Position numbers and translations under genes: made by a program. From the NCBI GenBank assembly GCA_016192135.1, contig JACPUR010000041.1, positions 186,001 through 250,000 on the forward strand: a stretch of 64,000 nucleotides of DNA. The letters run 5' to 3'. Within the stretch, counting starts at the first letter, position 1, and each line of letters begins with the position of its first letter. This DNA comes from Candidatus Tectomicrobia bacterium (GTDB lineage Bacteria > UBA8248). Below are positions 41,876-52,781 of this stretch, one piece after another. Below the pieces are notes generated by a model, which ran no database searches, was not told the DNA's origin, and saw nothing but the letters and a program-made list of their open reading frames with translations.

Positions 41876-43732
41876 TTAACGGGCGCCGTTGGCGCCGGCC
41901 TTCGCCGCCACGTCTTCCAATCCCAGCCGCTTAAGGGCGGCCGCCGTGGGCACGCCCTCCGGGCTCCAGCCCCGCAGCCGGTAGTACTCGTCCTTCATGG
42001 CCTCGAGCTCGGCCGGCGGGCAGTGCATCCCCTTGTGGGGGCCCTCCGGGATGGGCTCGTGCATGACGCGGTGGGGCAGCATGTCGCGCGAGCGGTCCAC
42101 TCCCTCGCGCACCTGGAAGGCCCGCTCGAGGTTGACGATGCGCTCGCCTGTCCGCTCCAGCTCCTCGGCCGTGGTGTCCCAGCCGGTGATCATGTTGAGC
42201 ATCTCGGCGTACTTCTCGTTGATCATCGCGCCGTAGCCGCGCTCGGCGGTGAAGCGGCACTGGGTGATGGAGTCGCCCATCGCGGTGAAGTTCTGGGTCT
42301 TGATGGCGAAGAGAGGCTTGCCCTCGGGGCTGGTGTTGTCGTGGTCGGCGGCGTACTGGAGGGTAGGCCGGGTGTCGTGGTGGCTGCCGCCCCGGGTGCC
42401 AGTCGCGTAGCCGATGGACATGCCCTTGAGCGCCCGGGCGCTGTGCGCCGGGAGCTCGAGCCCGCGCGCCGCGTAGAGGAACTTGGGGGCGTCCCCCCCG
42501 ATCTCCTCGGCGAGACGCTGCCCGCCCTCGGCCAGCCGGGCGCCGAAGCCGCGCCGGTGGGCCATGTCCTCGAGGAGCTGGAGCATGGTCTTGGCGTCGC
42601 CCCAGCGCAGCTCGACGCCCGTGTCGGACTTCTTGAGGAGGCCCCGCTCGTAGCACTCGAAGGCGAGCGAGAGGGTGACGCCCGCCGAGACGGTGTCGAG
42701 GCCCAGCTCGTCGCAGAGCATGTTGCCGCGCATCAGGGCGCCGGCGTCCCCGACGCCGAGCATGGTGCCCAGGGCGAAGATGCTCTCGTACTCGGGCATC
42801 TTCCACTTCAGGCCGTCGAACTCCCCGCCCTTCATCAGGTAGTCCTTGCCGCAGGCGACGGGGCACTTGAGGCAGGTGGTGTCCTTGTCCAGGTAGTGCT
42901 CGAGCATGTACTCGCCGCTGATGGGCTCGCAGCTCTCGAACACCTCGGTCATCAAGTTCCGGGTGCCCAGGGCGCCCATCTTGTTGATCATGTTGACGAG
43001 GATGGGGGTGCCGTACTTGTTCAGCGCCGCCGTGCCCTTGCGGACCCCCTCGGCCGTGGCGTTGACGTAATCGCGCAGCGCCTTGGCGTCGGCCACCTCC
43101 GTCTTGGCCTTGCCCTTCACGGCGATGGCCTTGACGTTCTTGCTCCCGAGGACGGCGGCCATGCCGCCCCGCCCGCTGATGCCGTCGCGGCTCTTGCGCC
43201 AGGTGTGGGTCATGGCGGCGAAACGGACACGATTCTCCCCCGCCGGCCCGATGGCGATGACGTCGGCGCCCCCCTCGCGCGAGGAGACGGTCTCGCAGGT
43301 CTCGCGGATCCACTTTCCCTTGAGGCCCGAGGCGTCCCGGAAGACCGCCCCCTCCTCGGAGATCACGAGATAGACCGGCCCGCTGGCCGTGCCGTGCAGG
43401 ACAATGGCGTCGTGGCCCGTGCGCTTGAGGGTGGTGGGCCAGGCGCCGCCGAAGGTACTGTCGAAGAAGAGGCCGGTGAGGGGGCTCTTGGCCGCGATGC
43501 AGGCCCGGCTCGCGCTGGGGACGGCCGTGTCGGTATAGGGACCCACGGCGAAGGCGATGACGTTCTCGGAGGAGAGGGGGTCCACCCCCGGGCGCAGGAG
43601 GTCGAAGAGGAGGCGCGCGCCGAAGCCGTTGCCGCCCAGGTAGTTCCGGGCGAAGGCCTCGCCGAATTCCTCGGCGCGGGCTGTCCGGGCCGCCAGGTCG
43701 ATGTGCAGAATCTTGCCTTGGTATCCGAGCAT
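41876..43732 (-). CDS. Aldehyde:ferredoxin oxidoreductase, tungsten pterin type
   Basis: A 618-residue protein of the AOR family, which oxidises aldehydes to acids with ferredoxin using tungstopterin and a [4Fe-4S] cluster. Cluster ligands are Cys287, Cys290, Cys294 (TTCLKCPVACGK) and Cys492 (SITQCRF), nearly the same numbering as the Pyrococcus enzyme (288, 291, 295, 494). Pterin-binding regions include YLGGNGFGARLL, SPLTGLFFDSTFGGAW and KGMSIGYATGTRGGSHHD. AGGGAG precedes the ATG. The gene stands alone; no small ferredoxin-like subunit is adjacent. AOR implies low-potential electron flow, so at least partly anaerobic metabolism. Confidence 0.93.
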   Translation of the reverse strand: MLGYQGKILHIDLAARTARAEEFGEAFARNYLGGNGFGARLLFDLLRPGVDPLSSENVIAFAVGPYTDTAVPSASRACIAAKSPLTGLFFDSTFGGAWPTTLKRTGHDAIVLHGTASGPVYLVISEEGAVFRDASGLKGKWIRETCETVSSREGGADVIAIGPAGENRVRFAAMTHTWRKSRDGISGRGGMAAVLGSKNVKAIAVKGKAKTEVADAKALRDYVNATAEGVRKGTAALNKYGTPILVNMINKMGALGTRNLMTEVFESCEPISGEYMLEHYLDKDTTCLKCPVACGKDYLMKGGEFDGLKWKMPEYESIFALGTMLGVGDAGALMRGNMLCDELGLDTVSAGVTLSLAFECYERGLLKKSDTGVELRWGDAKTMLQLLEDMAHRRGFGARLAEGGQRLAEEIGGDAPKFLYAARGLELPAHSARALKGMSIGYATGTRGGSHHDTRPTLQYAADHDNTSPEGKPLFAIKTQNFTAMGDSITQCRFTAERGYGAMINEKYAEMLNMITGWDTTAEELERTGERIVNLERAFQVREGVDRSRDMLPHRVMHEPIPEGPHKGMHCPPAELEAMKDEYYRLRGWSPEGVPTAAALKRLGLEDVAAKAGANGAR

Positions 43733-43793
43733 GGGTGCTCCCTATCCATCGCGATGAGAAAAGAGACGAGCCAGTCCGCTGCGATTATATCGG

Positions 43794-43799
43794 ATTCGG
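43794..43799 (-). promoter_or_regulatory. TATAAT -10 box upstream of the AOR gene
   Basis: A consensus TATAAT on the minus strand, 61 bases before the ATG. The best upstream -35 is poor (TTTTCA, spacer 16), so the assignment rests on the -10 only. Confidence 0.4.
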
Positions 43800-43866
43800 C
43801 GGCCTTGAAAAGGCGCTCAGGCCTGGCCCGAAAGGCCTCGGCGGGCAGGCCTTTGCGGGGCGGGGA

Positions 43867-44577
43867 CTAGCCCGGCACTTCCAGCCGCCGGTAGGACTCG
43901 GCGCATTCTAGGCCGCTTCCCTCGGCCATCCGCTTGCTCCAGTCGCGCATGTGGGAGATGAGCTCCTCGACGTCCCCGATCTGGCTCTTGTGGCAGGCGA
44001 GAGCGCGCATCTTGATCTCGAAGACGGGGGCGATGTCCACCCAAACGTCCGGCTTGGCGGGATGGCTGAAGTAGACTTCCTTGGGGTGGTGGGGCTCCAG
44101 CCCCTCGGCCAAGAGCTCGGGGAAGAAGTTGGGGTTCCCCACCGCCGGGTAGAGGGCGTCGAAGATGGCCTGGTTCGCACTGCGGTGGTCGCGGTGGTAG
44201 CCGTAGAAGCTGTCGAAGGAGGCCATGGCGGGGTCGCCGCTCACCACGAGGTCGGGCTTCACCCGGCGCATCATCCTCACCAGATCGCGGCGGAGGTCGG
44301 GAGTGTTCTCCAGCTCCCCGTCGGGATGGCGGAGGAAATGCACGTCCGCCACCCCGAGCACCTCGGCGGCGGCCCGCTGCTCGGCCTCTCGGATGGTCCA
44401 GCGCTCCTCGAGGGAGAGCCCGCGGGAGCCGTTCCCGTTGAAGCCTTTTTCGCCGCTGGTGCAGAGGCAGTACTCCACGCGGCGCCCCTGGCCCGCCCAG
44501 ACGGCGGCGGAGCCCGCGCTGCGGAACTCGAGGTCGTCGGGATGGGCGGCGATGAAGAGGATCGTCCGGTGCTCCAT
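43867..44577 (-). CDS. PIG-L family deacetylase
   Basis: A 236-residue zinc-dependent de-N-acetylase of the PIG-L/BshB/MshB family. The zinc and catalytic motif AAHPDDLEF is at the N-terminus and the distal histidine motif GYHRDHRSAN near residue 135. Further matches are HFLRHPDGELENT and YFSHPAKPDVWVDI. Typical substrates are N-acetylglucosaminyl conjugates, including bacillithiol or mycothiol precursors, but no other thiol-biosynthesis gene is near. It is divergent from the D-2-hydroxyacid dehydrogenase gene; the 284 bases between them carry a TATAAA (44627-44632, minus) as the only promoter-like sign. Confidence 0.87.
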   Translation of the reverse strand: MEHRTILFIAAHPDDLEFRSAGSAAVWAGQGRRVEYCLCTSGEKGFNGNGSRGLSLEERWTIREAEQRAAAEVLGVADVHFLRHPDGELENTPDLRRDLVRMMRRVKPDLVVSGDPAMASFDSFYGYHRDHRSANQAIFDALYPAVGNPNFFPELLAEGLEPHHPKEVYFSHPAKPDVWVDIAPVFEIKMRALACHKSQIGDVEELISHMRDWSKRMAEGSGLECAESYRRLEVPG

Positions 44578-44861
44578 GGGGGCTCGGCGCTCTCAAGACG
44601 GAAGAGGAGGGTAGGCGGACCCCCGATTTATAGCAGGGCGGAGGTCCGCGCGCCAAGGGGGGCGGAGGGGCGCGCGCCCAGGACATTGAAAACGCTGCGC
44701 TCCCGGCGCGCACTCTCATCCTGACACTCGTCTCGGCGGATTAGAGGCTCTTGCCTTCGCCCGTCCCGCACGCTTCGCTGTGGCGGAGGGGAGGCTTTGA
44801 TGATAATTTCAAGCACCCCGTGAGCATCCCATCGGCTCGACTTCACAGCGGAGGACCCGAG

Positions 44862-45857
44862 ATGACGGCCAAGCCCCGCGTCTTTCTCTGCAGCCGGATT
44901 CCGGACGAGGCGGAGCGCTACCTCCGCGCCCGCACCCGGCTGGAGGTGTATCCCGGGGAGGACCTCATCAGCCGCGAGGAGCTGCTGCGGGCCGTGCGGG
45001 AGGTGGATGGCCTCATCCCCACCGTCACGGAGCGGATCGACGCCGAGGTGATGGACGCCGCCCCGAATCTCCGGGTCATCGCCAACTACGGGGTGGGCTA
45101 CAACAACATCGACGTCGAGGCGGCGACCGGACGCGGCCTCCCCGTGACCAACACGCCCGAGGTGCTCACCGAGGCGACGGCCGATCTGGCCTTTTCGCTC
45201 ATCCTCGCGGCGAGCCGCCGCCTGGGCGAAGGGGAGCGCTATGTGCGGGCCGGCCGGTGGACGGGGTGGAAGCCCACCCAACTCCTGGGCTGGGACGTGT
45301 ACGGCAAGACGCTCGGCATCATCGGCTTGGGCCGCATCGGACAGGCCGTCGCCCGGCGCGCGCGCGGCTTCTCCATGAAAGCCCTCTACACCGATGCGCG
45401 GCGCGCCCCAGCCAGGCTCGAGCGCGAGCTGGGAGTGAGGTACGTGCCCATGGCGTCCCTGCTCCGGCAGGCGGACATCGTCACCGTGCACGCCCCCCTC
45501 ATGCCGGAGACCCATCACCTCATCAACGCCTCGGTGCTGCGGCGGATGAAGCGGACGGCCATCCTGGTGAACGCGGCCCGGGGCCCGATCGTGGACGAGA
45601 AAGCCCTGGCGGCCGCCCTGCGCTCGGGCCAGATCGCGGCGGCGGGGCTGGACGTCCACGAGAAGGAGCCCTCGGTGCATCCCGATCTCCTCGAGCTCGA
45701 GAACGTGGTGCTGCTGCCCCACTTGGGGAGCGCCACCCTCGAGACGCGGACGGCCATGGGCCTGCTCGCGGCGAAGAACTGCCTCGCCGCCCTGGCGGGC
45801 AAGAGGCCCCCCTGCCTCGTGAACCCCGAGGCCTGGCGGAGCCGCAGGCGGGGGTGA
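44862..45857 (+). CDS. D-2-hydroxyacid dehydrogenase (glyoxylate/hydroxypyruvate reductase type)
   Basis: A 331-residue NAD(P)-dependent enzyme. The nucleotide motif is LGIIGLGRIGQAVARRA; the catalytic Arg, Glu and His are in NAARGPIVDE, LDVHEKEPS and LLPHLGSAT. The substrate-side loop NYGVGYNNIDVEAATGRG matches glyoxylate reductases (GyaR). GGAGGACCCGAG precedes the ATG at 44862; upstream in-frame codons lack a ribosome-binding site. A GATAAT at 44802-44807 could be the -10. The downstream cupin gene follows by 4 bases, and an SDR and a PilZ gene come after it in the same direction. Confidence 0.9.
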   Translation: MTAKPRVFLCSRIPDEAERYLRARTRLEVYPGEDLISREELLRAVREVDGLIPTVTERIDAEVMDAAPNLRVIANYGVGYNNIDVEAATGRGLPVTNTPEVLTEATADLAFSLILAASRRLGEGERYVRAGRWTGWKPTQLLGWDVYGKTLGIIGLGRIGQAVARRARGFSMKALYTDARRAPARLERELGVRYVPMASLLRQADIVTVHAPLMPETHHLINASVLRRMKRTAILVNAARGPIVDEKALAAALRSGQIAAAGLDVHEKEPSVHPDLLELENVVLLPHLGSATLETRTAMGLLAAKNCLAALAGKRPPCLVNPEAWRSRRRG

Positions 45858-45861
45858 GGCC

Positions 45862-46215
45862 ATGGGCGCGAAAGGAGCCCCGGAGGGAAGACGCGCCCTC
45901 GCCGTGAATCTCGGCGAGATGATCCATCTCATTCCGGGAGGCATCTCCAGCCGGACCGTCTTCAAGGACGAGCGCGGCCAGGCCATCCTGTTCTGCATGG
46001 CGCCGGGGGAGGAGCTCCTCGAACACACGGCGGCCCATCCGGCCGCGGTGCACATCCTCGAAGGCTCCGGCACGTTCGAGATGGAGGGCGGGGTCCATCC
46101 CGCCGCGCCCGGCGCCCTATTCCACATGCCGGCCCGCCTGCCCCACGCCGTCCGGGCCGAGCCGGGGGGGAAGGGACTCGTGTTCCTTCTCACCATGTTC
46201 TTCGAGCCGAAATGA
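45862..46215 (+). CDS. Small cupin-domain protein
   Basis: A 117-residue single-domain cupin. The two cupin motifs are seen as GEELLEHTAAHPAAVHILEG and PGALFHMPARLPHAVRA. Possible metal ligands are His (EHTAAH) and the later His (LPHAV). It begins 4 bases after the hydroxyacid dehydrogenase gene, so it is co-transcribed. Small cupins of this kind bind metals or sense small molecules; the function here is not known. Confidence 0.8.
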   Translation: MGAKGAPEGRRALAVNLGEMIHLIPGGISSRTVFKDERGQAILFCMAPGEELLEHTAAHPAAVHILEGSGTFEMEGGVHPAAPGALFHMPARLPHAVRAEPGGKGLVFLLTMFFEPK

Positions 46216-46275
46216 AAGGCCGGGACTCTCGGCGGTTCGTGAGGCGGCCCCGTTTGGCTCGGATGAGGGGATGAA

Positions 46276-47070
46276 ATGGATCTGGGAATCCGGGGGCGGA
46301 CGGCACTCGTGACGGGCGGCAGCCGGGGGATCGGGCGGATGACCGCCCTGCGCTTCATGGAAGAGGGCGCCCGGGTGGCCATCTGCGGCCGGACGAAGGA
46401 GACCATCGAAGAGGCCCGGGAGGACCTGGCGAAGCGCACGGGGGGCGAGGTGCTGGCCGTCCAGGCGGACACGTCGCGGCCGGAGGACATCCCCCGGCTC
46501 GTCCGGGGCGTCGTGGAGCGCTTCGGGGGGCTGGACATCCTGGTGAACAACGCAGGCACCATGAGCTCGGGCCGCTTCAATGCCTTGACGGACGAGGCCC
46601 TCCAGCTCCAGCTCGACACCAAGCTCTTCGGCTTCCTGCGCCTCATCCGGGAGGCGGTCCCCCACATGCGGGCCAAGGGGTGGGGGCGCATCGTCAACAT
46701 CATCGGCGGGGCCGGAAAGGAGCCCGACCCCTACATGTTCGGGAGCGGGATGACGAACAGCGCCCTTCTGAACCTGACGAAGTCCCTCTCGGCCGAGTTC
46801 GGGGAGGAAGGCATCCACGTCAACGCCGTCTGCCCGGGCTGGGTGGACACCGCCCTCTGGCGCCGGAACGCCCGGGGCCTCGCCGCCGAGCTCGGGGCCC
46901 AGAGCGAGGATGAGGCGCGCCGCCTGGCCGCCCGCCGGAACGCCCTCAACCGCTTTGGGAGGCCCGAGGAGCTGGCGGACGCCATCGTCTTCCTGTGCTC
47001 CGAGCGCGCGAGCTACATCACGGGCGTTTCCCTCAACCTCGACGGGGGCAGGCTCAAAGCGCTCTGGTAG
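46276..47070 (+). CDS. SDR-family protein lacking the usual catalytic residues
   Basis: A 264-residue protein of short-chain dehydrogenase fold. The cofactor motif TGGSRGIGR and NNAG (DILVNNAGTM) are normal, and the C-terminus SLNLDGGRL is typical. The catalytic region is atypical: the expected SS is replaced by IIGGAG, and where YxxxK should be the sequence reads SGMTNSALL, so Tyr and Lys are missing. Such GMTN/NAAL-type SDRs form a known divergent branch. It may bind NAD(P)H without classical catalysis, or use other residues. GAGGGGATGAA precedes the ATG. Confidence 0.85.
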   Translation: MDLGIRGRTALVTGGSRGIGRMTALRFMEEGARVAICGRTKETIEEAREDLAKRTGGEVLAVQADTSRPEDIPRLVRGVVERFGGLDILVNNAGTMSSGRFNALTDEALQLQLDTKLFGFLRLIREAVPHMRAKGWGRIVNIIGGAGKEPDPYMFGSGMTNSALLNLTKSLSAEFGEEGIHVNAVCPGWVDTALWRRNARGLAAELGAQSEDEARRLAARRNALNRFGRPEELADAIVFLCSERASYITGVSLNLDGGRLKALW

Positions 47071-47149
47071 GCATTCCCGCGCGCCTCCAGGGCTTCTTCC
47101 CATCCTGGCGCCGAGGGAACCGCCGGGAACGGGCGATGATGAGGGGATC

Positions 47150-47500
47150 ATGGAAGAGAAGCGGCAGGACCCGCGCCACCACAAGCGGACGGCTTCCTCC
47201 GTTTTCATCATTGCGCCCGAATTATCGGAGGGTCCCATCGAGCCGGTGGATTTCAGCTCGGGCGGTTTCGGGCTCAAGCTGTCCCGGTGCCCCCTCCTGG
47301 GCACCACGGTTTCGTGCACCCTCCACATCGGGGGCGTCACCCTGAGCGGCATCTCGGCGCGGGTGGCCTGGACGCGCGAGGAGGCGAGCCCACCCCGCAC
47401 ATGGGCCGCCGGCTTGGCCATCCAATTCGAGGAGGGCGAGCGGGACGAGCTGCTGATCGCCCTGAGCGGGCTTTTGGCCGAGATCGCGGCGGGTTCCTGA
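47150..47500 (+). CDS. PilZ-domain protein (c-di-GMP receptor candidate)
   Basis: A 116-residue protein consisting of a single PilZ domain. The c-di-GMP-binding arginines are in EKRQDPRHHKR (RxxxR-like) and the second motif in VDFSSGGFGLKL ([D/N]xSxxG). Beta-strand pattern and C-terminal helix (ERDELLIALSGLLAEIA) fit. ATG at 47150 is preceded by GAGGGG. PilZ proteins adjust motility or polysaccharide production; the flagellar hook gene is two genes away, separated by the thioredoxin/NHL gene, so a motility link is possible but unproven. Confidence 0.82.
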   Translation: MEEKRQDPRHHKRTASSVFIIAPELSEGPIEPVDFSSGGFGLKLSRCPLLGTTVSCTLHIGGVTLSGISARVAWTREEASPPRTWAAGLAIQFEEGERDELLIALSGLLAEIAAGS

Positions 47501-47550
47501 GCGTCTTCTCTCCGTGAGGCGGCGCCGTCCCGGCGCCTGGGAGGGCCCGC

Positions 47551-49023
47551 ATGGAAAAACAGGTGCGCGCCCCCGATGTCGCCCATCCGGGGCTCCGGTG
47601 GTTCAACGTGCCGGCCCCGCTCTCCCTGCGCGATCTCGCGGGGCGGCTGGTGATCCTGGACTTCTGGACCTTCTGCTGCATCAACTGCATGCACATCCTG
47701 CCCATCCTCCGGCGGGTGGAGGAAGCCTTCCCGCGCGAGGTGGCGGTCATCGGCGTCCACTCGCCCAAATTCGCGGCCGAGAAGGACCCGGACAACGTGG
47801 CCCGGGCCATCGCCCGCTACGGCATCGTCCATCCGGTGGTGCACGACCCCGAGTGCCGCATCTGGCGGAGCTACGCCGTGCGCGCCTGGCCCACCCTTGT
47901 GTTCGTCTCGCCGGACGGCTACGTCCTGGGCGCCCACTCGGGCGAACCCGACCCGGACGCCCTCCTGCGGGGGCTTTCCCAGGTGGTGGACCAGATGCGG
48001 AGCGCGGGGCACGCCGCGCCCGGCGCGCTCCCGCTCGCGCCGGTCCCCCCGGCCGGGGGGAGGTTCGCCTTCCCCGGCAAGCTCAGGCCCCTGCGCGGGG
48101 GTGAGAAGGCCTGGGCCCTCTGCGACTCGGGCCATCACCAGATCGCCGTCCTCGACGACGCCGGCCGCGACCGGGGCCGCGCCGGCAGCGGCGAGCCGGG
48201 CTGGCGGGACGGGGAGATGGGGGAGGCGCGGTTCCAGAGCCCCCAGGGCCTCGCGGCGGATGACGCCGCGATCTACGTCGCCGACACCTGGAACCACCGC
48301 ATCCGCCGCATCGACCGGGAGAGCGGCCGGGTCACCACCCTGGCGGGGACGGGCGCCCGCGGCCTCGCGCTCGGCGGCCCCGCGCCCGGCCTCCAGACCG
48401 CGCTCGCCTCCCCCTGGGACCTCGAAGTGCGCGGGACACGGCTCTTCTTCGCCAACGCGGGCACCCACCAGCTCGGCGTCGTGGACCTCGCCCGGGGGAC
48501 GGCGGAGCGGCTGGCCGGCTCGGGGGCGGAGGCCCTGGTGGACGGTCCGGCCGCCGAGGCCGCGCTGGCCCAGCCGAGCGGCCTGGCGCTGGACCCGCAC
48601 GGGGAGAGGCTCTACTTCGTGGACAGCGAGACCTCCTCCGTCCGCTATGTCTCCCTGAACGGGAGGCCCGAGGTGCATACCCTGGCGGGGAAGGGCCTCT
48701 TCGACTTCGGCCACGAGAACGGCCCGCTCGACCGGGCGCTCTTCCAGCACCCTCTGGGGATCGCCTGGCTCGAGGGCGGGGGCGGACGGCTCCTCGTCGC
48801 GGACAGCTATAACGGCGCGCTGCGCGTCGTGGACCTGCGGCGGCAGTGGGCGAGCGACCTGGACGACGGCTTCGACTGCGCCGACCCCGTCTGCCTCCCG
48901 GCGGGGGAGCCCGCGGGGGCGGCCGTGGACACTCCGGAGCGCGTCTTCATGGTGGACACGAACAACCACCGCATCCTCGAGTACCTCGTCAGGGAGCGCA
49001 CTTACCGGACCTGGAGCCAATGA
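47551..49023 (+). CDS. Thioredoxin-like/NHL-repeat protein (NHLRC2-like)
   Basis: A 490-residue protein with an N-terminal thioredoxin-like domain (about 1-150) and NHL beta-propeller repeats (about 165-490). The redox motif is [12 protein letters not shown], in which CxxC is C-I-N-C preceded by an extra cysteine, as in NHLRC2. NHL units include [40 protein letters not shown] and [16 protein letters not shown]. No signal peptide. The known relatives in animals and plants have poorly defined roles. It follows the PilZ gene by 50 bases and may share its transcript. Confidence 0.85.
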
Positions 49024-49208
49024 AGCGCCTCCCGGCGCGCCTCCTCACCCTCCCTTTCCTCACGGCGCCCGGCCTCGCCCGCCCCGGTTCTTGTTTCCCC
49101 GTCTTCCGGGAAATTTCTTCCCCCGTCCCCGGTCCGAAGTCACCTCGGGCGAAGCGATCTTTCTGATAAGTCAATATAATTCAACGCGGTAGGCGGAACG
49201 TCCCGCAT

Positions 49209-49224
49209 CGGCACGGAGCTTGCT
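49209..49224 (+). promoter_or_regulatory. Sigma-54-type promoter upstream of the hook gene
   Basis: CGGCACGGAGCTTGCT matches the sigma-54 consensus TGGCACG-N4-TTGCW at all but its first base, with the invariant GG (49210-49211) and GC (49222-49223) 12 bases apart. It lies about 70 bases before the flgE ATG. Hook genes are under sigma-54 in many flagellated bacteria, which supports the call. A TATAAT at 49175-49180 lacks a -35. Confidence 0.75.
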
Positions 49225-49292
49225 TCGATCCTTTCGGGCGCTGCCCATCCGGGCGGCGGGGCAATGCCGGCCTCTTTGGCGAGGAGCGCATC

Positions 49293-51401
49293 ATGAGCGT
49301 ATTCCCGGGGCTTTCGATCGGCGCCTCCTCCATGGAGAACGCGGCGAACGCGCTCCAGATCGTCGGGAACAACCTCGCCAACCTGAGCACGTCCGGCTTC
49401 AAGCGGAGCCGCGGAGTGCAGTCCACCGCGTTCTCTTCTCTCCTGACGGGCGGCTCTCCCGGGAACCAGATCGGCCACGGCGCCCTGGGCATCCAGTCCC
49501 AGCGGATCACCTCCCAGGGCGCGAACGAGCGGACCGGCATCGACACCGACGTGGCCGTTGACGGGAACGGCTGGTTCATCGTCAAGGCCCCCGCCAGCAC
49601 CGAGCTCCTCTACACCCGGGCGGGCAACTTCCGCCTCGACGAGAACCGCTTCCTGGTGGAGCCCGACGGGAAACGGGTCCAGGGTTTCGCCGTCACCAAT
49701 GGCGTGACCGGCAATGCCCTGGGCGACATCGCAGTGACCTCGCTGAGCTCGCTCGGGGCGCCCACCACTCTCGTGCAGCTCAAGGGGAACCTCAATTCCT
49801 CGGCCTCGGTCCTGGGCGTCCCGCCCGCCTTCACATCGGCGGCCAAGATGGACGAGTTCACCGTCGTCCAGGGCGTCAACGATCAGATCGTCTTCGAGAT
49901 GAACCAGAACGGAACGGCCATCACCGCGAGCCTCGTGACGGACGGCGGCCTCGTCTCGGGCGCGCCGGCCACCGGAGCCGCCCTCGCGGCCGCCCTCAAG
50001 CAGGCCTTGGAAACCCAGAACGGCACGGGCGACACCTACGGCGTCGCCTACGATCAGGCCACGGATCTCTTCAGCATCACGAACCTGCAATCCAACACGA
50101 ACACCATCGCCTTCCGGCACGGCGACGCGGCCTCGACGGCATCCGCCCTGCTCGGCTTCGCCGCCTCGAACTCAGAGCCCATCGCCCCGAACAGCCGGGA
50201 GGAGAGCGACCTCGGGGTGGCCTTCAACGTGGTCGCGGGCGTGAACGACACCCTCTCCGTCCTCATCGACGGGGCGGCGACGAGCGTCACCATCGCCGCC
50301 GACAACTACACGGGCCAGGAGCTGGCTTTCGCGATGGAGGCCGCCCTGCGGGCCGCCTCGGCGCAGAACGTGGGTATTCAGGTCACGTACAGCGTGGGCA
50401 ACGCTTTCAACCAGTTCGTCATCAAGGGGCCGGTCACCGGCGGCGCGCACACCATCAACCAGCCCTCGAACACGGCGAATCCGTCCATCTCCGTCGCCGC
50501 CGCCCAGATCTCCGTGACCGGCGGCACCCTCGCCCAGACGACGGGCCTGGCCGCCGGCACGGCCGCGGACGGGACCGGCTTCTTCGACATCGCCGATCCC
50601 TTCGCGACCAGCTCTTCCAGCACGGTGGTGCAGATCGTGGACAGGCTGGGCAACCAGCACCCCCTCACCATCTTCATCCGCAAGATCGGCGACAACGCCT
50701 GGGACTGGCACGCGGCCTTGAAGGGGGAGAGCCTGACGGGGCCCACGCCGGACGGCTTCTTCGAGCAGGTGGCCAGCGGCCGCGTCCGCTTCGACACGCT
50801 GGGAAAGCTCCTCAGCGAAACCATCACCCCGGGCGCGGGCGTATTCAATTTCGGCGCCGTGAGCGGAGGGGCGGTCCCGGCGCCCAACCAGCTCATCACC
50901 TTCGATTTCGGCGACGCCATCCAGGCGGGCGGGACGGGCCTGGCCGGCATCTCCCAGTATGAATCCTCCATCCTCCCTGCCTCCCAGGGGGGGCGGGGCG
51001 CGAACGTCCTCACCCTGACCACCGTCATCTCCGACGGAGAACCCGGCGGCTCCTTCACCGGCTTCCGGATCGGCGACGACGGGTTCATCCGGGTGGATTT
51101 CTCCAACGGGCGCGACGAGGCCATCGCCCTGCTGCCGCTCGCCCTCTTCCCGGCCGAGGACGAACTCACCGCCATCTCGAACAACCTCTTCCGGCGCACG
51201 GACGCGGCCGGGACGGCCGTCGTCACCGCCCCTCTCGTGAACGGGGCGGGCCGCCTCCTGGCGAGGAGCCTCGAGCGCTCCAACGTCGAGAGCGCCGAGC
51301 AGTTCGGCGAGATGATCTTCCAGCAGCAGATCTTCCAGGCGAACTCCCGCGTCATCACGGCCGCGAACGACGTGCTGGAGTCGCTGATCAACATCGTCTA
51401 G
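49293..51401 (+). CDS. flgE: Flagellar hook protein FlgE, long form
   Basis: A 702-residue hook protein. The N-terminal rod/hook segment reads ANALQIVGNNLANLSTSGFK, the D0/D1 hook motif is DVAVDGNGWFIVKAPAS...YTRAGNFRLDENRFLVEPDG, and the C-terminus SNVESAEQFGEMIFQQQIFQ...LESLINIV is the standard flagellar basal-body C-domain. The central region is large and includes two related modules (FTVVQGVNDQIVFEMNQNG and FNVVAGVNDTLSVLIDGAA, each followed by an AL-rich helix) like flagellin-type inserts. AGGAG precedes the ATG. No other flagellar gene is present around it. It is driven by the sigma-54 promoter at 49209-49224. Confidence 0.93.
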   Translation: MSVFPGLSIGASSMENAANALQIVGNNLANLSTSGFKRSRGVQSTAFSSLLTGGSPGNQIGHGALGIQSQRITSQGANERTGIDTDVAVDGNGWFIVKAPASTELLYTRAGNFRLDENRFLVEPDGKRVQGFAVTNGVTGNALGDIAVTSLSSLGAPTTLVQLKGNLNSSASVLGVPPAFTSAAKMDEFTVVQGVNDQIVFEMNQNGTAITASLVTDGGLVSGAPATGAALAAALKQALETQNGTGDTYGVAYDQATDLFSITNLQSNTNTIAFRHGDAASTASALLGFAASNSEPIAPNSREESDLGVAFNVVAGVNDTLSVLIDGAATSVTIAADNYTGQELAFAMEAALRAASAQNVGIQVTYSVGNAFNQFVIKGPVTGGAHTINQPSNTANPSISVAAAQISVTGGTLAQTTGLAAGTAADGTGFFDIADPFATSSSSTVVQIVDRLGNQHPLTIFIRKIGDNAWDWHAALKGESLTGPTPDGFFEQVASGRVRFDTLGKLLSETITPGAGVFNFGAVSGGAVPAPNQLITFDFGDAIQAGGTGLAGISQYESSILPASQGGRGANVLTLTTVISDGEPGGSFTGFRIGDDGFIRVDFSNGRDEAIALLPLALFPAEDELTAISNNLFRRTDAAGTAVVTAPLVNGAGRLLARSLERSNVESAEQFGEMIFQQQIFQANSRVITAANDVLESLINIV

Positions 51402-51440: not shown

Positions 51441-51470
51441 TGTAGGGGCGTACGGCCGCACGCCCCTACA
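51441..51470. repeat. Family A hairpin after flgE (TGTAGGGGCGT)
   Basis: Perfect 11-bp stem TGTAGGGGCGT / ACGCCCCTACA, 40 bases after the flgE stop. It may also stop transcription, although no T-run follows. Confidence 0.7.
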
Positions 51471-51493: not shown

Positions 51494-51594
51494 GTCATTC
51501 TGAGCGGAACGAAGTGAAGCGAGGAATCTCGGTTCTAACCACCGATATCCTTCGCGGAGCCTGTCCTGAGCGAAAGCGAAGGGCTCAGGATGAC
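51494..51594. repeat. Family B element (TGTCATTCTGAGCG...)
   Basis: Starts GTCATTCTGAGCGGAACGAA and ends GAAGGGCTCAGGATGAC, with internal GAGGAATCTCGG. It fills most of the space between flgE and the convergent acyl-CoA dehydrogenase gene. Confidence 0.7.
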
Positions 51595-51623: not shown

Positions 51624-52781
51624 TCACTCCGCCGGGTACTTCTCCACCAGCCGGCGGGCGATCACGATGCGCTGGATGTCGTTCGTGCCCTCCCCCACCT
51701 GGAGCACGGGCGCGTCGCGGTAGTAGCGCTCGACGGGCAGCTCCTTGATGTAGCCATAGCCCCCGTGGATGTGGATGGCCGCCTCCGTGGCGCGCTGGGC
51801 GGCGTCGGAGGCGAAGAGCTTGGCCATCCCCGCCTCAAGGTCGCAGCGCCGGCCGGCGTCCTTGAGGCGCGCCGCGTGGTAGGTGAGCTGGCGGGCCGCC
51901 TCGAGCGAGGTGGCCATGTCGGCGAGCTTGATCTGGATGGCCTGGTGCTCGGCGATGGGCTTGCCCATCGTGCGCCGCTGCTGGGCGTAGCGGAGGGAGT
52001 CCTCCAGGCAGGCCCGGTGGATGCCCAGTGCCCGGGCCGCCACCTGGATGCGCCCCAGCTCGAGCCCCGCCATGAGCTGCTGGAACCCCCGGTTCTCCTC
52101 CCCGATGAGGCAGGCCGCGGGCACCCGGCACTCCTCGAAGACGAGCTCCCCCGTGCGGATCCCCCGGTAGCCCATCTTGTCCAGGTGGCGGCTCACCCGG
52201 AAGCCCGGCAGGTCGCGGTTCATCAGCAGGCAGCTGATGCCCCGGTGGGGCTTGTCGGCCGCGGGGTTGGTGCGGACCATCACGCCGAAGTGGGTGCCCC
52301 GCTCGCTGTTGGTGATGAACATCTTGGAGCCGTTGACGATGTAGTCCGTCCCCTCGCGGCGGGCCGAGGTGCGCAGGGCCGCCACGTCCGAGCCCCCGTC
52401 CGCCTCGGTGATGCCGATTCCGCAGCGCACCTCCCCGCGCGCCATCCGGGGGAGCCACTCCCGCCGCTGCTCCTCCGTGCCGTAGCGGTGGATCATCCAC
52501 GCGACCATCGAGTGGCCGCCGAGCGTCCCGGTCAGGCTCATCCAGCCCCGCGCCAGCTCCTCGGTGAGGACGACGAAGCTCACCGCGTCCATCCCGGCCC
52601 CGCCGTACGCCTCGGGGATGACCGCGCCGAAGTAGCCGAGCTCCTTCATCCGGTCCACGAGGGGCTGGGGGTACTCGTCCGCGTGGTCGTAGCGGCTGGC
52701 GGCGGGAATGACCTCCTGCTGCACGAACTGGCGCACCCCGGCCTGGAGCGCCCGCTGGAACTCGGTGAGCTGACCGTCCAT
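51624..52781 (-). CDS. Acyl-CoA dehydrogenase
   Basis: A 385-residue FAD-dependent dehydrogenase that introduces the alpha-beta double bond into an acyl-CoA. The family blocks are intact: EAYGGAGMDAVSFVVLTEEL, GIGITEADGGSDVAALRTSA (FAD/substrate), VNGSKMFITNSERG, the C-domain IHIHGGYGYIKELPVERYYR and the catalytic glutamate in LQVGEGTNDIQR. The length is typical. GGAGGAGCGGGA precedes the ATG. The chain-length preference cannot be told. No electron-transfer flavoprotein genes are adjacent. Confidence 0.92.
   Translation of the reverse strand: MDGQLTEFQRALQAGVRQFVQQEVIPAASRYDHADEYPQPLVDRMKELGYFGAVIPEAYGGAGMDAVSFVVLTEELARGWMSLTGTLGGHSMVAWMIHRYGTEEQRREWLPRMARGEVRCGIGITEADGGSDVAALRTSARREGTDYIVNGSKMFITNSERGTHFGVMVRTNPAADKPHRGISCLLMNRDLPGFRVSRHLDKMGYRGIRTGELVFEECRVPAACLIGEENRGFQQLMAGLELGRIQVAARALGIHRACLEDSLRYAQQRRTMGKPIAEHQAIQIKLADMATSLEAARQLTYHAARLKDAGRRCDLEAGMAKLFASDAAQRATEAAIHIHGGYGYIKELPVERYYRDAPVLQVGEGTNDIQRIVIARRLVEKYPAE

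Follow-up and report, generated by a model that had tools for sequence, protein, structure and literature searches.

A solitary second hook-type gene behind a conserved sigma-54 promoter in a Candidatus Tectomicrobia genome

Introduction

What does a flagellar hook gene do alone among housekeeping genes, and is the string in front of it a promoter or an accident of sequence? This question is raised by one locus in the window, the whole stretch of 64,000 nucleotides of a Candidatus Tectomicrobia genome (3.92 Mb, 41 contigs) that we analysed. A preliminary description had taken the gene for a solitary flgE behind a near-perfect sigma-54 promoter, regulated with the flagellar cascade. We followed the locus through this genome and through its family, 18 Tectomicrobia/Nitrospinota MAGs in which this genome is G000. 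NCBI taxonomy places Tectomicrobia and Nitrospinota within the Nitrospinota/Tectimicrobiota group, and the aldehyde ferredoxin oxidoreductase (AOR) protein of a groundwater Candidatus Tectomicrobia MAG is 91% identical to that of the window.

Two hook genes are known from C. jejuni, FlgE2 (Cj1729c) and FlgE (Cj0043), the long one being RpoN-dependent, adjacent to metB and outside the flagellar operons (PMC5069557, PMC11187230, PMC4626219). In purified C. jejuni hooks, the solitary copy was the only protein found (PMC5069557, PMC11187230). A survey of sigma-54 across many phyla lists FlgE (COG1749) among the targets (PMC12316311). Degenerative flagellar evolution has been described in Actinobacteria (PMC10746217), and flagellar loss with possible remnants has been discussed for Pseudomonadota (PMC13063649). 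None of the titles and abstracts listed by our literature search described a pair of flgE genes in Tectomicrobia or Nitrospinota.

Results

The flgE-type gene occupies 49293..51401 on the forward strand (702 codons) and was assigned as a second hook-type paralogue from its open reading frame, Pfam and NCBIfam searches, its orthologues and a tree. A ribosome-binding site, GAGGAG, was read upstream of the ATG at 49281-49286 on the same strand. The upstream neighbour is an NHL/thioredoxin-type gene (47551-49023, forward strand), the downstream neighbour an acyl-CoA dehydrogenase gene (51624-52781, reverse strand), and the contig, C41, carries the gene among housekeeping genes. Searches of the genome with FlhA, FliF, flagellin, FliD and a ten-protein set turned up no further flagellar gene on C41, in agreement with the preliminary description. 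The flagellar probe matches of this genome lay on C37, C32 or C33, and generic ATPase or sigma-factor matches on C19, C17 and C37.

The encoded protein contains Flg_bb_rod, FlgE/F/G D1, FlgE_D2 and Flg_bbr_C, all exceeding the Pfam cut-offs, and scored 204.9 bits against TIGR03506 (cut-off 70.25 bits). By this domain content (D0 ends, D1 and FlgE D2), it belongs to the FlgE/F/G hook-rod protein superfamily. Both terminal polymerisation segments are kept, and an obvious signal peptide is absent. The AlphaFold2 model, made from a nine-row alignment, was poor (mean pLDDT 49, pTM 0.29).

A search for a second flgE, which the preliminary description had itself suggested, overturned the view that the solitary gene is the only hook gene: a canonical flgE of 841 aa lies at C37:33908-36433, adjoining flgD in the main flagellar cluster. 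Of 17 foreign FlgE ORFs, 16 matched the main copy better than the window protein, and the best solved-structure match likewise favoured the main copy (150.4 versus 91.5 bits). Against the structure 5jxl, which we take to be C. jejuni FlgE, the scores were 150.4 bits for the main copy and 82.6 bits for the window protein. Judged by sequence, the flgD-linked copy is the more canonical FlgE of the two. The NCBIfam equivalog cut-off for FlgE (400 bits) was reached by neither, the best model giving 321.5 bits for the main copy and 216.8 bits for the window protein, and the latter was therefore filed as an FlgE-type paralogue, not as an FlgE orthologue. It also lies outside the epsilon FlgE family TIGR02489 (139.6 of 412.85 bits).

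The sigma-54 (-24/-12) promoter CGGCACGGAGCTTGCT was found at 49209..49224 on the forward strand, just as claimed beforehand, and its first base is the sole mismatch to TGGCACGN4TTGCW. Its GG (49210-49211) and GC (49222-49223) are 12 nt apart. Counting from the -12 GC, a sigma-54 start is predicted near 49235, with a predicted 5' leader at 49235..49292 (forward strand). The pattern with at most one mismatch occurs 17 times in the 3.92-Mb genome versus 21 times for a reversed control, and with at most two mismatches twice in the window versus 6.3 expected. Counts within one genome thus leave CGGCACGGAGCTTGCT at chance level, and it is the comparison of sequences across relatives that makes the promoter secure.

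All eight syntenic orthologues with upstream DNA carry CGGCAC-N5-TTGC[TC], 84-159 nt before the ATG; the ninth orthologue (G001) was left uncounted, as its sequence begins inside the gene. When the same eight windows (at most 420 nt, one strand) were dinucleotide-shuffled 2000 times, the mean was 0.004 and the maximum one of eight, for a pattern that had been chosen after the sites were seen. CGGCAC and TTGC were invariant in the upstream alignment, where mean column identity was 52%. A further comparison covered 15 named loci around AOR in GTDB genomes. The CGGCAC site was present in the four with flgE and the core was absent from all 11 without it, one of which (L122) ends 189 nt past AOR and counts for little. 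That CGGCACGGAGCTTGCT is a chance match is a negligible prospect: its frequency in one genome, no higher than that of the reversed control, would allow it, but the site is carried by every orthologue that could be read and is missing where AOR stands without flgE.

Upstream of the promoter, where activator sites would be expected, the only feature noted by eye was an A+T-rich patch (49160..49186, forward strand). The patch may be a bend or an IHF-type site, and the corresponding place in relatives is also A+T-rich in the alignment by eye. As putative sites, AATCAATATATTA in G007 and AATCAATAACTTA in G002 presumably fit the IHF consensus; the window patch gave no exact fit. The 5' leaders of the orthologues align poorly, and a search for a structured leader with Rfam, covering the window and eight related loci, gave no match at the gathering score.

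RpoN is present in the genome (PF04552 at C38:39416-39886). The search for RpoN and FlrC/FlbD-type activators that had been recommended also yielded, with PF00158, two sigma-54 activator genes, both near flgB: activator 1 (C37:51557-52948) and activator 2 (C37:47812-49182), whose best model is FlbD, below cut-off (447 of 750 bits). They flank a TPR gene next to flgB, and the order atpB-activator-TPR-activator-flgB is kept in G002, G007 and G014. The full flagellar cluster spans C37:518-52948 and comprises fliC, fliW, csrA, flgL, flgK, flgI, flgH, flgA, flgG, flgF, fliA, flhG, flhF, flhA, flhB, fliR, fliQ, fliP, fliN, fliM, fliL, flgE, flgD, fliI, fliG, fliF, fliE, flgC, flgB and others, the names being given from sequence and order and several confirmed by the FlhA, FliF, flagellin and PF00158 searches. 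FliD is encoded on C33, and a short lone flagellin on C32. The preliminary description had made its case depend on the presence of rpoN and of other flagellar genes, and the genome has both.

Sigma-54-like sites were also found on C37 upstream of flgF, fliO, fliL, the first activator and a TPR gene. By the gene calls made in this analysis, pattern matches on C37 were intergenic in five of six cases in the first 54 kb versus one of eight in the remainder. Counterparts in relatives were found for the sites of flgF, fliO and flgB. At flgF, G000, G002 and G014 share an identical site, TGGCACATCTCTTGCT (flgF being assigned by position, where automatic labels named paralogues), and sigma-54-type sites precede flgB in G002, G007 and G014. 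At the level of sequence, the claimed regulation with the flagellar cascade thus held, given a sigma-54 promoter, RpoN, two activators and similar sites in the cluster; the claim that this is the hook gene of the cascade did not.

The solitary gene has orthologues in nine of the 18 family genomes, this one included (G000-G004, G007, G008, G012 and G014). FlhA was found in five (G000, G001, G002, G007 and G014), all of which have the solitary gene, as do four of the 13 genomes lacking FlhA (G003, G004, G008 and G012), indicating that the gene does not always go together with the export gate. Wherever contigs reach far enough, the neighbourhood is the same. The AOR gene lies directly upstream in at least seven genomes (G002, G003, G004, G007, G008, G012 and G014), and the acyl-CoA dehydrogenase gene comes next, or after one small gene, in at least seven (G000, G001, G002, G007, G008, G012 and G014). 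Downstream, G003 passes straight to a ferredoxin gene found further on, and the contig of G004 ends.

Relative to G007, the window has the segment running from AOR to a PilZ-like gene (about 41.9-47.5 kb; region 41876-49023) inverted, and G002, of the same genus as the window, has AOR directly upstream of flgE. By this gene order, one end of an inversion lies near the flgE promoter in the window lineage. Because the promoter stayed with flgE after the inversion, upstream control still in use would lie at about 49024-49208, or else in the promoter itself or beyond it.

We built a tree of 23 proteins, which took six of the nine known solitary copies and three main copies, broken and short ones being excluded. 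The results showed that the solitary forms make one clade and the main forms another, each with 100/100 support, indicating that the duplication is at least older than the divergence of the family. Together they join the single, cluster-borne FlgE of G048 (support 99/96), from which their split is weakly supported (86/69). Between G000 and G002, the solitary copy evolves about three times faster in the tree than the main copy (0.33 versus 0.10), for which weaker constraint could account. The solitary copy of G014 has 838 codons (L078:4340-6853), with an internal domain of about 129 residues present an extra time; this domain also matches two places in the main FlgE.

Pairwise dN/dS was calculated by NG86 only, after columns with less than 30% local identity had been dropped. 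For the solitary gene it was about 0.35 in the flagellated pair G000-G002, 0.38 and 0.31 for two parts of the gene in G004-G012, and 0.42 and 0.63 in pairs with G001. The whole range was 0.11 to 0.63, the lowest values coming from distant, saturated pairs. The AOR neighbour gave 0.18 (140 codons) in G000-G002 and 0.12 in G004-G012. The similar values in the two pairs suggest that the solitary gene stayed under constraint through most of the time since G004 and G012 diverged, a pattern compatible both with flagellar losses that were recent or separate and with continued use.

With generic matches and the solitary FlgE set aside, the ten-protein probe found no FlgI, FlgG, FlhB, FliP, FliM, FliG or FlgC in G003, G004 and G012, and in G008 it found only fliG. 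G003 and G004 carry truncated fliC and broken activators. On ungapped DNA, one G003 contig has, in order, activator 1 (in two frames), the TPR gene, activator 2 as far as residue 322 (of 456), and fliC from residue 36, a junction whose sequence marks it as two cluster ends joined by deletion. Activator 1 of G004 stands beside atpB in several frames. A binning gap is an unlikely reason for the missing cluster in G003, where this junction is readable, and in G004, given the multi-frame activator by atpB. G012 also lacks AtpB, and its missing cluster may be an assembly gap. A single absent marker is weak evidence in any case, as G007 has FlhA and gave no FliF match.

G008 retains fliC, fliG, a piece of fliD and short flagellins. 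Its fliG (L109:3158-4159, on G008:C53) lies on an 11.8-kb contig with no match to any other C37 protein, in a genome without FlhA or FliF matches. Its fliD (L119:1-770, on C58) is cut by the contig start and lies beside atpB, the place of activator 1 in flagellated relatives, with a TGGCATGAATGTTGCT string upstream.

Among the genomes without FlhA, the solitary gene is open as far as the available sequence reaches in G003 (683 codons, counted from the aligned ATG) and in G004 (592 codons to the contig end, the remainder likely being on C19), and lies in two frames in G008 and G012. A programmed frameshift was rejected for the latter two, as the breaks differ (about residue 331 and residues 532-535 of the window protein). 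Both may be assembly errors; flagellated G007 likewise shows its second activator in two frames.

Discussion

We found a conserved paralogue of flgE standing alone behind its own conserved promoter, in a genome with RpoN, two sigma-54 activators and a complete flagellar cluster. The solitary gene is probably a sigma-54-controlled second hook subunit (flgE2) that serves the flagellum. On this proposal, built from sequence comparison, flgE would have been duplicated before the family diversified and one copy placed alone at an old housekeeping locus. That copy would be transcribed alone from its sigma-54 promoter, timed with the sigma-54-dependent genes of the flagellar cluster and driven by RpoN and the activators on C37. 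Its product would exit through the flagellar export gate and join the hook or form part of it. In a lineage that loses the cluster, the distant solitary gene would be left behind for a time.

The closest precedent, by analogy, is the RpoN-dependent FlgE2 of C. jejuni, which the window gene resembles in being solitary, in having an RpoN-type promoter and in the presence of a second flgE beside flgD. This likeness raises the reading that the solitary gene supplies the main hook protein and that the minor one comes from the flgD-linked copy, as reported for C. jejuni FlgE2/FlgE, where the hook is built from the solitary, RpoN-dependent copy only (PMC5069557, PMC11187230). The gene arrangement is similar, but in the window genome, unlike C. 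jejuni, it is the flgD-linked copy that is canonical by sequence, and it is also the slower-evolving one; we consider this reading unlikely, though worth keeping. In the tree, which is without C. jejuni, the nearest relative of the window gene is its own main copy.

The persistence of gene and promoter in four genomes without FlhA (G003, G004, G008 and G012) could also mean that the gene has a role independent of the flagellar export apparatus and outlasts the cluster for that reason. This is improbable, as is its fuller form, a hook-type protein acting outside the flagellum, perhaps with the leftover flagellins, and without the export gate or by another exit. We know of no way out of the cell for an FlgE-type protein without that gate. 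Two of the four copies (G008 and G012) are frameshifted, and the cluster of G012 may merely be absent from the assembly. Other flagellar leftovers persist in the same genomes, the truncated fliC and broken activators of G003 and G004 and the fliC, fliD and fliG of G008 among them. Rates point in both directions: dN/dS in G004-G012 (0.31-0.38) is about that of the flagellated pair, and the G004 branch is not longer than the flagellated G014 branch (0.31 and 0.30), but relative to AOR the solitary gene is about threefold higher in G004-G012 and twofold in G000-G002, a hint of weaker constraint.

We regard it as very improbable that the gene is a duplicate in decay, functionless even where a flagellum is present, a reading to which its fast evolution and scattered single-genome frameshifts lend themselves: the gene is open in the four flagellated genomes that have it complete (G000, G002, G007 and G014), its dN/dS is well below 1, its promoter core is invariant, and it keeps the same place across the family.

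With the solitary gene read as a second hook subunit under sigma-54, the window genome resembles FlbD/FlrC/FlgR-type cascades in its -24/-12 promoter, RpoN and activators beside flagellar genes. At the first position of the -24 box, all eight orthologues have C, versus T in the consensus of the sigma-54 survey (PMC12316311). The case shows how a real sigma-54 promoter may be told from a chance string in the genome of an uncultured bacterium, and it extends the two-hook-gene arrangement of Campylobacter to the Tectomicrobia/Nitrospinota lineage. As with flagellar remnants after motility loss, isolated flagellar genes outlive the cluster in this family. Unlike the described remnants, the leftover here is a distant paralogue with its own promoter, and the cluster deletion junction is readable in G003. 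Flagellar loss appears to have been caught in progress, with the hook paralogue and its promoter remaining after the cluster was deleted. Should the leftover gene prove useful without a flagellum, this would be new biology.

Minor features were also noted. A short flagellin-like gene of about 263 aa stands alone far from the cluster (L101:9380-10171, on G000:C32), and similar short flagellin_N matches occur in seven further genomes (G003, G004, G007, G008, G010, G012 and G014), some without FlhA; no sigma-54-type core was seen at the short lone flagellin loci examined. Behind the solitary flgE, a clear intrinsic terminator is absent, no T run following a 28-nt inverted repeat at 51442..51469, about 40 nt past the stop, which equals its own reverse complement with two mismatches. 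A GAGCGGAACGAAGTGAAGCGAGGAATCTC string lies just past flgE at 51502-51530. This string and the 28-nt palindrome each occur once in the window, and we take both to resemble dispersed intergenic repeats.
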